Below are positions 38,697 through 62,175 of a stretch of DNA of 64,000 bases, piece by piece. The stretch is from Peptococcaceae bacterium. Its GTDB lineage: Bacteria > Bacillota > Peptococcia > Peptococcales > Peptococcaceae. The first letter of the stretch is position 1. Each line of letters begins with the position of its first letter. The stretch covers positions 62,001 to 126,000 of the forward strand of contig JAFQEO010000032.1 of assembly GCA_017399005.1 (NCBI GenBank). The letters are read 5' to 3'. The position numbers and the translations under genes are program-made. Under the pieces are notes generated by a model, which was given only the letters and a program-made list of their open reading frames with translations, made no database searches and was not told where the DNA came from.

Positions 38697-38774
38697 AATT
38701 AACAAGTTATCTTACGAAGAATGGAAGAAAGGCAGCCTGTAAGAGGCAATCTAAATCGAAAGGTCGAGAAATTT

Positions 38775-39800
38775 ATGATGAAAAACAGAAAATTTGTAAA
38801 AGGCATTGCAGTAGCAGCAATTGCAGCAATGTCTATGGGCATGCTGGCCGGCTGCGGTGGCGGTGAGGATACACAGCAGGAAGCAGCAGAAACTTATAAA
38901 GTAGGCCTTGTACAGTTAGTACAGCACGGCTCTCTGGACCAGGCAAATGAAGGTATGGTTGCAGGTCTGGCAGCAGAAGGTTTTGTAGTAGGTGAAAATC
39001 TGGAAATTGATCAGCAGAATGCGCAGGGTGATCAGTCCAACTTACAGAGTATTGCACAGCAGTTCCTGTCCAATGAAGTAGATGTAATTATGGCAATTGC
39101 AACACCGGCAGCACAGGTAATGGCTGCAGCAACCGAAGAAATCCCAATCGTAGGGACTGCAATTACCAGCTATACAGAAGCTGATCTGGTAGAAAGTGAT
39201 GAAGCACCTGGTACAAACGTAACAGGTACACATGATATGACACCAATCGAAGATCAGATTGACTTATTACTGCAGGTAGTGCCTGATGCAAAAGTAATCG
39301 GTACCATTTATACTTCCAGCGAAGCAAACTCTATCGTTCAGGTTGATATTCTGGAAGAAATCTGTGCGGCAAAAGGTTTAACTGTTGAAAAACGTACAAT
39401 TTCTACTGTAAACGATATTCAGCAGGCAGCACAGAGTATGGTTGGTGAAGTAGATGCTGTATGGCTGCCAACTGATAACAACGTGGCATCCGCTATGCCG
39501 CAGGTTGTTGGTGTGACCGATGAAGCTGGTCTGGTAACTGTATGTGGTGCTACTTCCATGGTAGAAGCAGGCGGTACATTAACTTATGGTATCAACTACT
39601 ATTATATCGGTTATGATGCTGGTGTAATGGCAGCACAGATTCTGAAAGGCGAAGCAGAACCTGCTACTATGGCTGTTCAGGGTCCAAAAGTAGAAAATAT
39701 GGACTTAATCGTGAACATGGACGCAGTGGAATACATGGGTCTGGAAATTCCTGCAGAATTAATGGAAGGTGCAACTCAGGTTAGCACTGTTGCCGAATAA
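38775..39800 (+). CDS. TrpX-like ABC substrate-binding lipoprotein, paralogue 1
   Basis: 341 residues. Signal peptide with lipobox MLAGC (Cys27), then a Gly-rich spacer and a type I periplasmic-binding fold (ABC_sub_bind family: YKVGLVQLVQHGSLDQANEG, AIATPAAQVMAAATEEIPIVGTAI, LPTDNNVASAMPQV). Family members include the tryptophan-binding TrpX and other small-molecule receptors. It is the first of four tandem paralogues; the nearest permease and ATPase are 3.7 kb downstream. ATG chosen by the signal peptide. Substrate not determinable. Confidence 0.9.
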   Translation: MMKNRKFVKGIAVAAIAAMSMGMLAGCGGGEDTQQEAAETYKVGLVQLVQHGSLDQANEGMVAGLAAEGFVVGENLEIDQQNAQGDQSNLQSIAQQFLSNEVDVIMAIATPAAQVMAAATEEIPIVGTAITSYTEADLVESDEAPGTNVTGTHDMTPIEDQIDLLLQVVPDAKVIGTIYTSSEANSIVQVDILEEICAAKGLTVEKRTISTVNDIQQAAQSMVGEVDAVWLPTDNNVASAMPQVVGVTDEAGLVTVCGATSMVEAGGTLTYGINYYYIGYDAGVMAAQILKGEAEPATMAVQGPKVENMDLIVNMDAVEYMGLEIPAELMEGATQVSTVAE

Positions 39801-39833
39801 AAAATAGAAGATAGTATTGGTAAAATAGAGATG

Positions 39834-39855
39834 CTGAAAGGCATCTCTATTTTTT
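39834..39855 (+). terminator. Terminator after paralogue 1
   Basis: AATAGAGATGC / GCATCTCTATT, 6-nt loop, T-run. It separates paralogue 1 from the rest. Confidence 0.9.
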
Positions 39856-40037
39856 AAAATACATGAAAAATACTGTATTATGGTAGAAAAACCTATTGAA
39901 ATTTAAAACAAAAGAGAATAAAATATACTTTAACATATTAAAGTGTTAATTTAAATAAAAGTGCCTCAGGCATTTTTATAAAAACTGCAGCTGTCGCAGA
40001 TAAAGACAGTAAAATGAAGGATGGAAGGATGAGTAGT

Positions 40038-41069
40038 ATGAGAAAAAACAGAAAATTTATGAAGGGTATTGCAGTTGCGGCAATCGCAGCAATGTCTATG
40101 GGTATGCTGGCTGGATGCGGCGGCGGAAGCGATACACAGCAGGAAGGCGCAGAAACTTATAAAGTAGGGGTTGTGCAGTTAGTACAGCATGGTGCTCTGG
40201 ATCAGGCAAATCAGGGGATGATTGACGGTCTGGAAGCTAACGGCTATGTAGAAGGCGAAAATCTGGTAATTGACCAGCAGAACGCACAGGGTGACCAGTC
40301 CAATCTGCAAAACATTGCACAGCAGTTTGTTTCTAATGAAAGTGATATTATTTTAGCAATTGCAACACCTGCAGCGCAGGTAATGGCTTCTGCCACAGAA
40401 GAAATCCCAATTGTAGGGACTGCAATTACCAGCTTTGTGGATGCGAAACTGGTAGAAAGTGATGAAGCTCCTGGTGCAAATGTAACCGGTACCAGTGATA
40501 TGAACCCGATTGAAGCACAGGTAAACCTGTTATTACAGCTGGTTCCAGATGCAAAAGTAATTGGCACCATTTATACCTCCAGTGAAACAAACTCCCAGGT
40601 TCAGTTTGATATTCTGGAAAAAGTAGCGGAAGCAAAAGGTTTAACCGTTGAAGCTAGAACTGTATCTACCGTAAATGATATTCAGCAGGCAGCACAGAGC
40701 CTGGTTGGTCAGGTAGATGCTATCTGGCTGCCAACTGATAATAATGTGGCATCTGCTATGCCTCAGGTAATCGGTGTAACCGATGAAGCAGGTATCGTAA
40801 CTATCTGCGGTGAAGAATCCATGGTAAGAGCAGGCGGTACTGCAACTTACGGCTTCAGCTACTACCAGCTGGGCTACAATGCAGGTGTAATGGCAGCTCA
40901 GATTCTGAGTGGTGAAGGCGACCCTGCTACTATGCCGGTTCAGTACATGGCAGAAGAAGACTGCGTTCCAATCGTGAATACCGATGCCGTTGCAGAACTG
41001 GGCATCGAAGTACCTGCTGATTTACTGGATGCAGCAACAAAAGTAACCACCGGTTCTGTTGCAGAGTAA
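40038..41069 (+). CDS. TrpX-like ABC substrate-binding lipoprotein, paralogue 2
   Basis: 343 residues from MRKNRKFMKGIAV, with GAAGGA 8 bp before. Lipobox MLAGC at Cys27. Closely similar to paralogue 1 through the whole length (same signal peptide, EIPIVGTAITSF, YTSSETNSQVQ, PTDNNVASAMPQV) but with changes near the binding cleft (GEESMVRAGGTATYGFSYYQLG). Only 47 bp separate it from paralogue 3, with no terminator, so those two are co-transcribed. A small GCCT-c-AGGC hairpin lies in its upstream region. Confidence 0.9.
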   Translation: MRKNRKFMKGIAVAAIAAMSMGMLAGCGGGSDTQQEGAETYKVGVVQLVQHGALDQANQGMIDGLEANGYVEGENLVIDQQNAQGDQSNLQNIAQQFVSNESDIILAIATPAAQVMASATEEIPIVGTAITSFVDAKLVESDEAPGANVTGTSDMNPIEAQVNLLLQLVPDAKVIGTIYTSSETNSQVQFDILEKVAEAKGLTVEARTVSTVNDIQQAAQSLVGQVDAIWLPTDNNVASAMPQVIGVTDEAGIVTICGEESMVRAGGTATYGFSYYQLGYNAGVMAAQILSGEGDPATMPVQYMAEEDCVPIVNTDAVAELGIEVPADLLDAATKVTTGSVAE

Positions 41070-41116
41070 AAAAGTTAAAAATATTCATTGAAATAATAAT
41101 GAAAGGTTGATTTATT

Positions 41117-42142
41117 ATGATGAACAGTAGAAAATTCCGGAAAGGGATTGCAATGGCAGCCATTGCGGCAATGTCTATGGGGATGCTGGCCGGTTGTGGC
41201 GGCGGTGAAGATGTACAGCAGGATGCAGAAATGTATAAAGTAGGCGTTGTTCAGCTGATGCAGCACGGTGCATTGGACCAGTCCAATAAAGGGTTAATTG
41301 ACGGTTTGGCGGCAGAAGGTTTCGTAGAAGGCGAAAATATTAAAGTAGATCAGCAGAATGCACAGGGTGACCAGTCCAATCTGCAGAGTATTGCACAGCA
41401 GTTTTTATCCAACGAAGTAGATATTATTCTGTCGATTGCAACTCCATCGACTCAGGTAATGGCAGCTGCAACGGAAGAAATTCCAATCGTCGGTACTGCA
41501 ATCACCAGTTTTGAACAGGCTGGTCTGGTAGAAAGCGATGAAGCGCCTGGCACAAATGTAACCGGTACTCACGATATGACACCGATTGCAGAACAGATTG
41601 ACCTGTTGCTGCAGATTGTTCCAGATGCAAAAGTAATCGGTACTGTATATACTTCCAGTGAAAAGAATTCTCAGGTTCAGGTTGACATTCTGAAAGAAGT
41701 ATGTGAGGCAAAAGGCTTAACTGTGGTAGAACGTACCATTTCTACTGTAAATGATATTCAGCAGGCAACTCAGAGCCTGGTAGAAGAAAAAGTAGATGCT
41801 GTATGGCTGTCTACTGATAACAACGTGGCATCTGCTATGCCTCAGGTTGTTGGTGTAACCGATGCAGCCGGCATTATTACCGTCTGCGGTGAAGAGTCTA
41901 TGGTAAAATCCGGCGGTACCGTTACCTATGGTATCAATTTCTACCAGATTGGTTACGATGCCGGTGTAATGGCAGCACAGATTCTGCGTGGCGAAGCTGT
42001 ACCTGCTGAAATGCCGATTCAGGGTCCAAAACAGGAAGATCTGAAACTGGTAATCAATCCGGAAGCAGTTGAAATTATCGGTGTGGAAATTCCGGCCGAA
42101 TTAATGGAACAGGCTACCTTAACAACAGATGAAGCGGAATAA
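41117..42142 (+). CDS. TrpX-like ABC substrate-binding lipoprotein, paralogue 3
   Basis: 341 residues. Lipobox MLAGC (Cys27), same fold and motifs as paralogues 1 and 2 (GVVQLMQHGALDQSNKG, LSTDNNVASAMPQV). One residue longer in the EEKVDAVWLS segment and Ser replaces Pro before TDNN. It is co-transcribed with paralogue 2. Divergence among copies at cleft positions suggests different ligands or affinities that share one permease. Confidence 0.9.
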   Translation: MMNSRKFRKGIAMAAIAAMSMGMLAGCGGGEDVQQDAEMYKVGVVQLMQHGALDQSNKGLIDGLAAEGFVEGENIKVDQQNAQGDQSNLQSIAQQFLSNEVDIILSIATPSTQVMAAATEEIPIVGTAITSFEQAGLVESDEAPGTNVTGTHDMTPIAEQIDLLLQIVPDAKVIGTVYTSSEKNSQVQVDILKEVCEAKGLTVVERTISTVNDIQQATQSLVEEKVDAVWLSTDNNVASAMPQVVGVTDAAGIITVCGEESMVKSGGTVTYGINFYQIGYDAGVMAAQILRGEAVPAEMPIQGPKQEDLKLVINPEAVEIIGVEIPAELMEQATLTTDEAE

Positions 42143-42175
42143 GAATTAACAGATTTATAATTCAGATGACAAAAG

Positions 42176-42211
42176 CTGCTGTATGGGATTACCTTCATAC
42201 AGCAGTTTTTT
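42176..42211 (+). terminator. Terminator after paralogue 3
   Basis: CTGCTGTATG pairs with CATACAGCAG; a T-run follows. Confidence 0.9.
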
Positions 42212-42382
42212 CTTACATAATGGACATATCGAATGGTTTTATAAAAACAGGCAGAATCTTTGTAGATACTGTTATGATTTTATTGAAAAACATTAATGAA
42301 ACCGTTACAATAAAAGGAAGTGAATTTTAGCGGAATGCATGAAAATATTCCGTGTGGCAATAAGAAAACAGGGGGAAAGAAG

Positions 42383-43387
42383 ATGAAGTTTAAAACAACA
42401 TTAAAAAAATGCTGTGCTGTTGTAACTATGGCTGCACTGGCAGCCGGTATGATGGCTGGCTGTGGCGGACAGAGTGAGGCAGAAACACACAAAATCGGAA
42501 TTGTAAAACTGGTAACCCATACTGCTGCTGATACTGCAAGCGATGGCTTTAAACAGGCACTGGCGGATAACGGTTTTGTAGAAGGTGAAAATCTTGAGAT
42601 TCTGGAACAGAATGGCCAGAATGAACAGAGCAACCTGCAGAGTATTGCACAGAACTTTATCAATGAAGAGGTGGATTTAATCTGTGCTGTTTCCACTTCT
42701 ACCGCACAGGTAATGGCTGCTGCCACTTCCGATATTCCAATCGTGGGCACTGCTATTACAAACTATGAAGAAGCAAAACTGGTAAAAAGCAATGAAGAAC
42801 CTGGTTATAACGTAACCGGTACCAGCGACCAGAACCCGATTGAAAGACAGGGGGAACTGATTATTGAACTGGTTCCGGATGTAAAATCGGTAGGGATTGT
42901 TTATAATGCCAGTGAAGTAAATTCCCAGTTACAGGTTGCGCATATGAAAACCTATCTGGCAACAAAAGACGTTGCTGTTGTAGAATCTGCATTCTCCGAT
43001 ATTAACAATATGCAGCAGGCAACAGAAGCACTGGTAGGAAAAGTAGAGGCAATCTTCCTGCCAACAGACAATACTGTGGCATCGGCGATTCCGCAGGTAG
43101 TTACCATTGCAGAGCAGGCAAAACTGCCGGTTATCTGCGGGGCTGATACCATGGTAGAAGCCGGCGGTACTGCAACTTACGGCATTGACTATTATAATCT
43201 GGGTTATAAAACCGGTGAGATGGCTGTAAAAATTCTGAACGGGGATGCAGAACCATCCACTATGCCGATTGAATATGCCAACGAAGATGAACTGACTCTG
43301 GTAATCAACAAAGAAGAAGCCGATTTAATCGGTCTGGAAATTCCGCAGGAACTGCTGGACAGTGCAAAAATCGTGGAAACAAAATAA
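42383..43387 (+). CDS. TrpX-like ABC substrate-binding lipoprotein, paralogue 4 (divergent)
   Basis: 334 residues from MKFKTTLKKCCAV; GGGGGAAAG precedes. Lipobox MMAGC (Cys27). It shares the fold with paralogues 1-3 (AVSTSTAQVMAAATSDIPIVGTAI, LPTDNTVASAIPQV) but is clearly more distant in sequence. As the gene nearest the permease it is likely the ancestral partner, with paralogues 1-3 a later amplification. Confidence 0.9.
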   Translation: MKFKTTLKKCCAVVTMAALAAGMMAGCGGQSEAETHKIGIVKLVTHTAADTASDGFKQALADNGFVEGENLEILEQNGQNEQSNLQSIAQNFINEEVDLICAVSTSTAQVMAAATSDIPIVGTAITNYEEAKLVKSNEEPGYNVTGTSDQNPIERQGELIIELVPDVKSVGIVYNASEVNSQLQVAHMKTYLATKDVAVVESAFSDINNMQQATEALVGKVEAIFLPTDNTVASAIPQVVTIAEQAKLPVICGADTMVEAGGTATYGIDYYNLGYKTGEMAVKILNGDAEPSTMPIEYANEDELTLVINKEEADLIGLEIPQELLDSAKIVETK

Positions 43388-59013: not shown

Positions 59014-59063
59014 AAAGCGTGTAAATGATATAGGGGTCTGTTTTCCCGGTCATTTACACGCTT
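59014..59063. terminator. Bidirectional terminator between cls and the hydrogenase-sensor operon
   Basis: AAAGCGTGTAAATGA pairs with TCATTTACACGCTTT. A- and T-runs at both ends. Confidence 0.92.
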
Positions 59064-59092
59064 TCTTTTTTGTTTTTGGCAGTGCTATGTTA

Positions 59093-60232
59093 TCAATACT
59101 GGTGAATGATAACTTCTTTCCCCAGTCGCTGCAGCTGTACGGTCAGTTTTTCAATGACTACATTGCGCAGACGAATCCCCGGTTTAATCTGTTCATAGGC
59201 CGGGTTCAGCTGTGTGCCGAAGAAAAGGGTGATACGATCCGCCCGCAGAAGCTGATTCAGCAACATAGTCGCCCCGTTTTCCGGCAGGTTATCCAGCTGA
59301 TTGTTTTCCAGCAGCTCACAACAGCGGTTCATGGTGATAATCCCTTCGGTTACCAGATCGATGCCGTTGATATGAGAAATCGGCGGAACTTCACTGGTCA
59401 GAAGATCGTGGTCATCGGTGGTCAGTTCCATGCCGCTTTCACGGGAAAATACCTGAGCAGTGGTGCCGCCGCAGATAATTTTGCGCCCGTGGGAACGCAT
59501 AAACTCATCCACCATACGGCTATCGTCTTCTTTATTCTGCGGCAGACCGGTCAGGATTGCACATTCCCGTGCCTGACGCATCTGTACGGCAACACCGGTG
59601 GTGTCATCGCCCGGTTCGCTGATGTAATAACTCATACAGATGGCAATGATCTGGTCTACCAGTTCCTGAGCGCTGCATTTCAGATTTACATTTTCTTTCA
59701 GAGCTTTTACAAGCCCTTTTGTCTGCAGCCCCATCGGCAGAGTAAGGCCCAGACCGGCTTCTGTTACCCCGTCACTGCTGATAAACAGCAAATCCCCTTC
59801 GTTCAGTTTCAGATGGGCTTTGTTAATCAGTTTGCCGAAAATCTCTTCGCTTTCCCGTTCTACCACTTCTACAAAGCCGTTTTTAATCAGAATCGGCGGC
59901 AGCCCGTCAAAGTCAATGATTTCCACGTCGCCGTCCGGTGAAATTTTCAGAATGGTAAAAGTGGAATAGGCAACTCCTCGCACCGAACATACCGGCAGAG
60001 TCCCTACAATTGTCTCAACAATGTCCTGCATCGGAACTTTGCTGCTGACCATTTTCGAGATAATCTTTGTTGTCAGATTTGACAGAATATTGGCTTTTAC
60101 GCCGCTGCCAAGCCCGTCAGAAAGCACAACCACTGTTTCGTCTGGATTACGAACGATTTCAACCGAATCGCCGCAGGTAACTTCACCATGTTTAATTAAC
60201 TGGGTTTTACCAACTTCGCAGATTAAACTCAT
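59093..60232 (-). CDS. SpoIIE/PP2C-type serine phosphatase linked to a sensory hydrogenase
   Basis: 379 residues. The PP2C-type metal motifs are present: VVLSDGLGSG, LFISSDGVTEAG and EPGDDTTGVAV. No transmembrane or PAS region is present, unlike sporulation SpoIIE; the phosphatase core fills residues ~1-240 and a C-terminal ~140-residue domain of unknown type follows (GRKIICGGTTAQVFSRESG). The ATG overlaps the stop of the hydrogenase-like gene (ATGA), so they act together. Its likely role is output of a redox or H2 signal by dephosphorylating an unknown partner. Confidence 0.88.
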   Translation of the reverse strand: MSLICEVGKTQLIKHGEVTCGDSVEIVRNPDETVVVLSDGLGSGVKANILSNLTTKIISKMVSSKVPMQDIVETIVGTLPVCSVRGVAYSTFTILKISPDGDVEIIDFDGLPPILIKNGFVEVVERESEEIFGKLINKAHLKLNEGDLLFISSDGVTEAGLGLTLPMGLQTKGLVKALKENVNLKCSAQELVDQIIAICMSYYISEPGDDTTGVAVQMRQARECAILTGLPQNKEDDSRMVDEFMRSHGRKIICGGTTAQVFSRESGMELTTDDHDLLTSEVPPISHINGIDLVTEGIITMNRCCELLENNQLDNLPENGATMLLNQLLRADRITLFFGTQLNPAYEQIKPGIRLRNVVIEKLTVQLQRLGKEVIIHQY

Positions 60233-61920
60233 TGATCAAGCTCCTTTTCCTGATTGAACTGTTTGATTAAGTCGAGCAGAATAATTTTGGTGTCAGCGGT
60301 TGTTTCCCCTAACAGGCTGGCAATCTGCTGAGCAACATACATCTGGTTATTGATAACCTGAGTTGCTTTACTCAGAGTTTCCTCACGCATTTTATCCAGC
60401 TCGGCACGTTTCATTTCATCTTTTGTAATATCGGAAATAATAGCCATATACAGATTCTGGGTACCCTGCATTCGCACTACATTCTGGCGGGTTACCAGAT
60501 TCAGATCATCGTAGTGTACAATCAGATCTTTCATACCGCGGCCAGTCTCTACAACCTGTTCAAAATCGCGGTGGTCGATGTATTCAAATACCGCATTTCC
60601 CACCTGAAGATTATACGCTTTAAACATATCGCGGGCTGCCGGATTGAATTCCTGAATGATGAAGTCCTGGTCAAAGATAATGATAGCACTCGGATTGCTT
60701 CGAATTGCGGTGTTTGCAGTGGATTCCGCACGACCACGCATATAGGTCTGGCACATTTTTTCCTCTGCCTGACCTCTTGCCACTGCCAGTGCTTTTTCAT
60801 AGCAGCTGTCGTAACCGCAGGCACCACAGTTCATTACTTTTTTGTTGTACTGTTTCAGATTAGACAGAATTTCGCGGATACGAGCGGTTTCTACTTTCGC
60901 CGGTTCTTTGTAGCGATTTTCAAATACGCGGCTGGTATCTGGTGTTTCAGCAAAATGACGGATTGGTTTATTGCTGTATTTATGGTAATAGTTTTTGATT
61001 TCCATTTTCTTTTCCAGAATACCGCGTTTTTCTAAACCGAACCCGCCCACACATCCGTTGCGGCAGCCATCCAGTTCCAGAAAACGACAGGCGAAATCCG
61101 GTGTTTTTTCCAGCTCTTCCAGTGCAGCAATACAGGTACTTAAACCAGACAGATACTGCACTTCGTTGCTGTTTACAACACCCCGGTCTACCATAATCTG
61201 CATCAGTTCACCGGCCATGGCCAGCGGTGCCCCCAGAGGTTTATACTGGGTCAGTTCCACTTCCACTTTCGCCAGTTCTTCCTTGTCCACTTTGCGGCTG
61301 AAAATAAAATCCAGTGCCTGGTCAAGAGTCAGAGTTAAATCGATATCGCTGTCTCGTCCTACCATGCTGAGGCACGGAGAAATATGCACTACTTTAATAT
61401 CCGAACCATATTTCTGTTTTAAGAGACGAGCATGCACCACGGCTTCATCTTCAATTGGAGCCAGATGTTCTAGCAGTTTCGGGAATTTTTGCTCGATTAA
61501 GTTGACTATAATCGGGCAATGACTGGAAATAATATATTTGTCAGTATTCTGAAGCAGGTTTGCATAAGTATCAAGGAATGGTTCTGCATTGACAGCGATT
61601 TCTTCAATGGCGTAAAAACCAATCAGTTTTAAGCGGGCCCATAGTTCTTCCTGGCTCCACTGATTAAAATGATTTACGAAAACCGGAGTCAGACTGAGAA
61701 CCACTTTTTCGGTTTTCAGCATCTGCTCCAGTTTTGGAATCTGATCGATGATACTTTTGGTATACTGCGGGCATTCTTTTACACAGCGACCGCACAAAAC
61801 GCACTGATCCGTCATGATTTTGGCCTGACCGGTACGGAAACTGATTGCTTTTACATCACAGTTTCGCAGGCAGCGGTAACAGTCCCGGCAGTTACCCATA
61901 TTATTAATAATTGGAAACAT
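60229..61920 (-). CDS. Sensory [FeFe]-hydrogenase-like protein (group C/HydS type) with PAS domain
   Basis: 563 residues. Two N-terminal 4Fe-4S clusters (CRDCYRCLRNC, CVLCGRCVKEC) lead to a [FeFe]-hydrogenase core with all four H-cluster Cys: C135 in SSHCP, C183 in SPCLSM, and C286/C290 in GCRNGCVGG. The proton-transfer Cys of catalytic enzymes (TSCCP) is His here and the L2 Lys region is altered. A further 4Fe-4S motif (NCGACGYDSC...C, 365-390) and a PAS domain (~405-510) follow. This architecture matches sensory hydrogenases paired with a phosphatase. H2 sensing is inferred, not shown; fast catalysis is unlikely. Confidence 0.85.
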   Translation of the reverse strand: MFPIINNMGNCRDCYRCLRNCDVKAISFRTGQAKIMTDQCVLCGRCVKECPQYTKSIIDQIPKLEQMLKTEKVVLSLTPVFVNHFNQWSQEELWARLKLIGFYAIEEIAVNAEPFLDTYANLLQNTDKYIISSHCPIIVNLIEQKFPKLLEHLAPIEDEAVVHARLLKQKYGSDIKVVHISPCLSMVGRDSDIDLTLTLDQALDFIFSRKVDKEELAKVEVELTQYKPLGAPLAMAGELMQIMVDRGVVNSNEVQYLSGLSTCIAALEELEKTPDFACRFLELDGCRNGCVGGFGLEKRGILEKKMEIKNYYHKYSNKPIRHFAETPDTSRVFENRYKEPAKVETARIREILSNLKQYNKKVMNCGACGYDSCYEKALAVARGQAEEKMCQTYMRGRAESTANTAIRSNPSAIIIFDQDFIIQEFNPAARDMFKAYNLQVGNAVFEYIDHRDFEQVVETGRGMKDLIVHYDDLNLVTRQNVVRMQGTQNLYMAIISDITKDEMKRAELDKMREETLSKATQVINNQMYVAQQIASLLGETTADTKIILLDLIKQFNQEKELDQ

Positions 61921-61923
61921 AGA

Positions 61924-62175
61924 CTAGTCCTCCTGTAAGCAGATTTCAACAAGACGAGGCACGTCGGCTACGGTGATATGCTGGTAGGTTTCTCCGTTCA
62001 CACGCACAATTACACCGTCAGCACACTGGCTCTGGCAGAAAGAGCCAGCCAGTTCAAACAGCACTTCACCGGCAGCTTCGCGGCGTTCCAGCTCAACCTG
62101 TAAAGCCTGTGCAATTAATGGTGCGCCTTTTAAATGGCAGGCGCTGCCCATACAAATCTGAATTTTTTTGGTCAT
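61924..62175 (-). CDS. Thioredoxin-like [2Fe-2S] ferredoxin
   Basis: 83 residues. MTKKIQICMGSACHLKGA and SFCQSQCADGVIVRV give the C-x(4)-C ... C-x(3)-C ligand pattern of NuoE/HydC-like thioredoxin-fold [2Fe-2S] proteins. First gene of the operon, 3 bp before the hydrogenase-like gene, so it probably exchanges electrons with that sensor. Confidence 0.9.
   Translation of the reverse strand: MTKKIQICMGSACHLKGAPLIAQALQVELERREAAGEVLFELAGSFCQSQCADGVIVRVNGETYQHITVADVPRLVEICLQED

Follow-up and report, generated by a model that had tools for sequence, protein, structure and literature searches.

The operon and its sensor protein

The stretch of DNA analysed here (the window) comprises 64,000 nt from a Peptococcaceae bacterium (assembly GCA_017399005.1, contig JAFQEO010000032.1, positions 62,001 to 126,000), and operon coordinates are given as window positions. 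At 59093-62175 it holds a compact operon of three open reading frames (ORFs), all on the minus strand, which encode, in this order, a thioredoxin-like [2Fe-2S] protein, a HydS-like relative of [FeFe]-hydrogenases and a SpoIIE/PP2C-type serine/threonine phosphatase. The HydS-like protein has kept the cubane cysteines of the H-cluster and lost most of the pocket for its [2Fe] subsite, and the module may well have become a sensor of redox poise or Fe-S status. An earlier note, made from the DNA letters, had proposed this three-gene module, and indeed all three ORFs are found and their domains matched.

The first gene (61924..62175, 83 amino acids) matches Pfam PF01257 (2Fe-2S_thioredx; 38.6 bits, E 1.2e-9), has the cysteine pattern C-x4-C ... 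C-x3-C and stands in the hfsA position. It is separated by 3 nt from the HydS-like gene (60229..61920, 563 amino acids), the stop of which overlaps the start of the phosphatase gene (59093..60232, 379 amino acids, hfsC position) in the tetranucleotide ATGA (60229-60232), as expected from the translational coupling suggested earlier.

HydS matches the Pfam domains Fe_hyd_lg_C (88.5 bits) and FeS (30.5 bits) and an N-terminal 2x4Fe-4S domain. Its AlphaFold2 model (mean pLDDT 88.9) matches [FeFe]-hydrogenases over approximately residues 1-340, best of all CbA5H (Z 30.2, rmsd 3.1, 329 aligned residues), and the hydrogenase fold thus persists in this protein. The chain starts with a domain for two [4Fe-4S] clusters (residues 11-53, 61762..61890), whose cysteines 11, 14, 17, 21, 40, 43, 46 and 50 are invariant in an alignment of 48 sequences, except Cys43, which is conserved in at least 90%. 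The H-domain (residues 59-300, 61021..61746) follows, and then a further [4Fe-4S] motif, Cx2Cx4Cx16C (Cys 365, 368, 373 and 390; 60751..60828), invariant in the alignment and described for group C/D enzymes (PMC8163306). The C-terminal part (60256..60735) consists of a PAS domain at 396-500 and a conserved helix at 501-555 (QMxVAQxIAxLLGETTAETK), residues of which are kept in nearly all derived sequences (defined below). The PAS domain claimed in the earlier note is borne out by the model, where a mixed helix/strand region of fitting fold occupies these positions, but not by Pfam, where PAS_8 scores 19.3 bits against a cut-off of 21.8.

The operon was compared with 80 related loci, found in GTDB genomes of which most are metagenome assemblies that differ in completeness. 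The phosphatase gene is adjacent in 78 of these, the [2Fe-2S] gene lies upstream in 70, and a further hydrogenase-like gene is close downstream in 40. In a tree of 62 sequences, ten, all from the family of the window and representing four genera, form one clade (SH-aLRT 100) nested in the sequences of canonical group C3, with G017 and G018, from the same order, as its sister. This derived clade has a single origin. The group A enzymes of the window's own genome lie across a branch with support 100, and HydS, which also has neither the TSCCP nor the MPCxAK motif, is excluded from group A by the tree. Phylogenetic placement, the check that had been asked for, thus leaves HydS among phosphatase-linked relatives. 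HydDB describes its group C3 as putative sensory [FeFe]-hydrogenases that are "phosphatase-linked" (PMC5037454), and the group C layout read earlier from the sequence is there: two [4Fe-4S] clusters, H-domain, Fe-S motif and PAS, linkage to a phosphatase and all four cubane cysteines. As judged by synteny and nesting among phosphatase-linked relatives, the operon belongs, in a derived form, to the hfsABC/HydDB-C3 sensor-phosphatase family.

There are other variations in this family. Two HydS-like proteins of about 860 amino acids (L059:121-2691 and L060:121-2697) are fusions with a sigma-54 activator AAA domain and a DNA-binding domain, and their L3 loop reads CxxC where others have CxxxC. In the sister lineage G017, a gene recognised by eye as a Rex-like redox repressor (L154:5105-5761) lies directly downstream of an hfsABCD-type cluster.

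The [2Fe] pocket and the maturation genes

The numbering of CpI was transferred to HydS by way of a group A enzyme of the same genome, which can be aligned to CpI, and of a multiple alignment. The pocket columns were picked by hand from CpI positions taken to surround the [2Fe] subsite. Some of them are named in the literature (PMC10055695, PMC6100070).

The [4Fe-4S] ligands of the H-cluster are all there in the window protein (Cys135, 183, 286 and 290) and in ten of ten members of the derived clade, as had been proposed. The rest of the [2Fe] pocket, which the earlier note did not see, is mostly lost. At eleven pocket positions, 90% or more of the 92 canonical C3 sequences agree; the derived clade keeps one to three of these positions, and the sister G017/G018 keeps 10-11. 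For all 32 H-domain columns conserved at this level, canonical sequences keep 23-32 (median 32), and derived ones 14-18. Nothing is left in the clade (0/10) of A230, K358, E361 and the conserved residues at 325, 353 and 418; P324 and G422 survive in one sequence each and S323 in two, and only P231 (8/10) and P354 (7/10) are mostly kept. Average retention in the derived clade is 17% in pocket columns, 62% in other conserved H-domain columns and 87% outside the H-domain, where derived sequences keep 43-51 of 56 conserved positions. Shuffling the labels over columns gave no result as extreme in 20,000 trials, a figure that is descriptive only, as it takes no account of the clade's single origin or of the manual choice of columns. 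The conserved pocket of functional [FeFe]-hydrogenases (A230, P324, K358, E361 and others) is thus not retained in the clade of the window protein.

The changes can be followed along the three loops. In L1 (61516..61521), Cys135 corresponds to the cubane ligand C300 of CpI, and the directly preceding His134 replaces the proton-transfer residue C299, in line with the earlier reading; His is found here in 10/10 derived and 0/92 canonical sequences. We considered this replacement as the key diagnostic and set it aside, since Cys at C299 is often absent from canonical and sensory sequences, being found in 57 of the 92 canonical ones and, among the sensory sequences of HydDB, in just 17% (PMC10055695), so that the change alone is weak evidence. 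In L2 (61354..61374), Cys183 is kept, K358 is replaced by Met186 and E361 by Arg189, each of the two original residues being present in 91 of 92 canonical sequences. Replacements vary among genera, with M, L or E at 358 and K, R, N or D at 361. In L3 (61051..61065), both Cys286 and Cys290 (C499 and C503 of CpI) are kept in 10/10 derived and 92/92 canonical sequences. For a lysine in the active-site niche, a salt bridge to the distal cyanide has been suggested (PMC6100070), and the residues that hydrogen-bond the [2Fe] cofactor are reportedly kept in sensory enzymes (PMC10055695). A distant relative, the HydS of a Lachnospiraceae metagenome-assembled genome (L124), has undergone independent partial erosion, with Asp at both 358 and 361 of L2 and 5 of 11 pocket positions kept.

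The genome of the window (G000) encodes four group A-type hydrogenases and HydF, and searches of its assembly for HydG and HydE returned only a ThiH-like protein. In the sibling G001, hydE and hydG adjoin; contig C34 of the window's genome has the corresponding flanks in collinear order, with 308 bp between them. The scar (C34:143352-143661; approximately 5350-5700 of L164) retains the initial 12 codons of hydE, which run into a stop. The absence of hydE-hydG looks like a true deletion. Misassembly, recent loss and an unbinned copy are possible, and a gap between contigs was rejected, the flanks being collinear inside one contig with the hydE stub. Another sibling, G006, gave no match to the scar region, and the scar could not be confirmed there. 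Nor can the deletion be the cause of pocket loss: relatives that retain hydE-hydG share the loss, which is therefore older. Derived and canonical modules stand together in three genomes (G001, G003 and G008), and since both are present, the two are not redundant there.

Two more observations concern hydrogenases in these genomes. A bifurcating-type HydA (L001; G000 C31:41526-42383) and its orthologues in 8/8 genomes of the genus have TSCSP in L1, in which Ser occupies the place expected for the cubane ligand C300; as all eight share it, the motif was not taken as a sign of decay. Three genomes with HydS-like genes (G032, G034 and G041) gave no HydG or HydF match above the cut-off in assemblies that are 85-96% complete.

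Selection, the phosphatase and the surroundings of the operon

The derived module is under strong purifying selection and is not decaying. The dN/dS of HydS is 0.029-0.050 against three sibling species (a fourth pair is saturated), pN/pS of the phosphatase is 0.13-0.20, and ten derived members are free of frameshifts. The clade has kept the accessory-cluster cysteines, the PAS-linked C-terminal helix and the catalytic residues of the phosphatase; identity between genera is lowest in the H-domain and linker (26-36%), and accessory-cluster domains are better conserved.

The phosphatase belongs to the SpoIIE/PP2C family by its Pfam match (SpoIIE, 61.1 bits), its metal-binding Asp/Gly motifs and its fold. 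Asp 22, 39, 154, 209 and 210 are found in 10/10 derived and 84-85 of 85 canonical sequences, and the model (pLDDT 90.6) matches SpoIIE (5ucg) with Z 26.1 and rmsd 2.6 over 215 residues. The extra C-terminal domain noticed earlier is modelled as an α/β domain at approximately residues 224-379 (59096..59563), with pLDDT mostly above 90. It indeed has no clear family: it gave no match in Pfam or NCBIfam, a PDB profile search gave only a weak match to phosphoheptose isomerase (E 0.15), and structure searches with the whole model were taken up by the PP2C domain. The domain is common to the family, and hence not special to the window; one phosphatase with an apparent frameshift in its C-terminal part (L067) was excluded from the domain alignment. 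STAS proteins and anti-sigma kinases of the genome were considered as targets, and none could be assigned, because plausible partners are already at hand for a SpoIIAA-AB-sigF-like set and for a STAS gene that lies next to a response-regulator phosphatase of its own.

On one side the operon is flanked by a divergent LysM/cell-wall hydrolase gene, and on the other by a convergent cardiolipin-synthase-like gene of the phospholipase D family. Between the operon and the latter, a bidirectional terminator-like inverted repeat with 15-bp arms, AAAGCGTGTAAATGA and TCATTTACACGCTTT, was read directly from the sequence (59014..59064); its loop exceeds the length that the terminator scan allows. An Rfam search near the operon and PADLOC gave no match. 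Elsewhere in the window (38721-43387), four tandem paralogous genes of ABC-transporter substrate-binding lipoproteins are followed by permease and ATPase genes.

What the module may sense, and comparison with known systems

We propose, with a probability of roughly 0.6, that in the derived module a hydrogenase has been turned into an Fe-S redox sensor, which acts through a phosphatase and whose input is redox poise or Fe-S status, probably no longer H2. The clade-wide loss of the pocket makes such an input the most likely one. The [2Fe] subsite is probably absent from derived HydS, and the [4Fe-4S] cubane is probably kept; the [4Fe-4S]H cluster is made by housekeeping machinery (PMC7450098). 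Of the H2/redox-sensing label given earlier, redox is the better supported part and H2 the least supported word. The earlier note had named failure to incorporate an H-cluster as evidence against its reading; with the pocket mostly gone and an assembly lacking hydE/hydG, such failure is probable for the full H-cluster, and the cubane would be spared.

In the mechanism that we infer, with regard to the absence of [2Fe] as well as to electron route, switch and output, electrons from the [2Fe-2S] partner or from ferredoxin would enter HydS through the two N-terminal [4Fe-4S] clusters. By their redox state or occupancy, the old H-domain cubane and the Cx2Cx4Cx16C cluster would alter the PAS domain and the C-terminal helix, and this change would switch the co-translated phosphatase, which would then dephosphorylate a Ser/Thr phosphoprotein.

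Several facts weigh against this reading. The window's genome has four other hydrogenases of intact appearance, which would be odd if no H-cluster were synthesised; the assembly or the binning may be in error. Genes for HydG, HydE and HydF are still present in several relatives that have the derived module. A bifurcating-type hydrogenase operon directly precedes the module in G008 and G010, and in G008 hydE-hydG-hydF are also near; this setting fits an H2-related role, and the position after the hydrogenase operon is the best argument for a continuing link to H2. Some changes in the pocket are tolerated, since sensory enzymes that have been shown to take up the H-cluster also differ at M497 and C299. 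HydS could be a true H2 sensor still, in which the H-cluster is inserted and the second shell has been re-engineered, with His134 as proton relay or ligand and other groups in place of K358; the C3 phylogeny, the four cubane cysteines, the preserved fold, the HydEFG of several siblings and the neighbours of the module in G008 and G010 agree with this, as does the tolerance of sensory enzymes to changes at C299, M353 and M497 (PMC10055695). The losses, however, extend to residues that 91-92 of 92 canonical sensors keep, the genus-to-genus differences in replacements look like release of constraint, and the assembly lacks hydE/hydG, all of which makes H2 sensing rather unlikely.

The H-domain might instead be a scaffold or Fe-S carrier, with the signal entering only via PAS or the [2Fe-2S] partner. 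Nar1 is a precedent (PMC12991071), and the better conservation of the accessory-cluster domains points the same way, but this is quite improbable given that all ten members keep four cubane cysteines and that the genes are arranged as in a sensor-effector operon. The divergence of H-domain and linker between genera is what would be expected of a relic in an operon on its way out; low dN/dS (0.03-0.05), intact frames and the retention of every cysteine and of the phosphatase residues leave very little room for such decay. Least credible of all is a catalytic group A hydrogenase, with which HydS has the Fe_hyd_lg_C domain in common, and from which both the tree and the lost pocket set it apart.

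The mechanism of signal transduction has not yet been shown for any sensory [FeFe]-hydrogenase, and the derived clade, with output and [4Fe-4S] sites kept and the H2 pocket dismantled, is a natural comparison that could separate redox sensing from H2 sensing. Annotation by domains (Fe_hyd_lg_C, PAS and SpoIIE) will over-call H2 sensors, for example in gut metagenomes.

The three-gene layout itself is already known from HydDB C3, Thermoanaerobacterium hfs and Ruminococcus albus HydS. HydDB C3 agrees with the window module in architecture, phosphatase linkage and nesting, whereas the window HydS is without the residues that hold the [2Fe] subsite. In Thermoanaerobacterium hfsABCD, HfsB is a PAS-bearing hydrogenase, HfsC a serine phosphatase and HfsD a further hydrogenase. 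The system is reported to have a regulatory role: strains that lack hfsA or hfsB yield about 1.8-fold more ethanol and express more adhE, an effect that needs hfsC and hfsD (PMC5707799, PMC11837493). The described layout, a PAS sensor hydrogenase and then a serine phosphatase, resembles that of the window, where the first three genes are present, the pocket of the sensor is eroded and the convergent cardiolipin-synthase-like gene stands in place of the fourth, hfsD-type hydrogenase, which canonical relatives have. R. albus HydS (Zheng et al. 2014), as cited in the same two papers, is a proposed H2 sensor with PAS in an hfs-like arrangement; compared with what is given there, the window operon is without a neighbouring HydA2-type hydrogenase. 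Characterised sensory enzymes of the TmHydS type share with the window HydS two [4Fe-4S] clusters, the H-domain, Cx2Cx4Cx16C and an unconserved C299, and TmHydS also has PAS; unlike the window HydS, which has lost K358, E361, P324 and A230, they bind the H-cluster and turn over H2 slowly. SpoIIE and RsbU-type PP2C phosphatases have the catalytic domain and metal-binding Asp in common with the window phosphatase, but not its C-terminal α/β domain with CGGTT and DLVTEG motifs. Finally, Nar1/CIAO3 is hydrogenase-derived, keeps cluster cysteines and has no H-cluster (PMC12991071); it resembles the window HydS by analogy, being a eukaryotic Fe-S assembly factor outside any sensor-phosphatase operon. 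The chances appear evenly balanced that one bacterial family turned an H2-sensing hydrogenase into a signalling protein by keeping the [4Fe-4S] half and the phosphatase output and discarding the [2Fe] half, and thus arrived at a bacterial signalling counterpart of Nar1.

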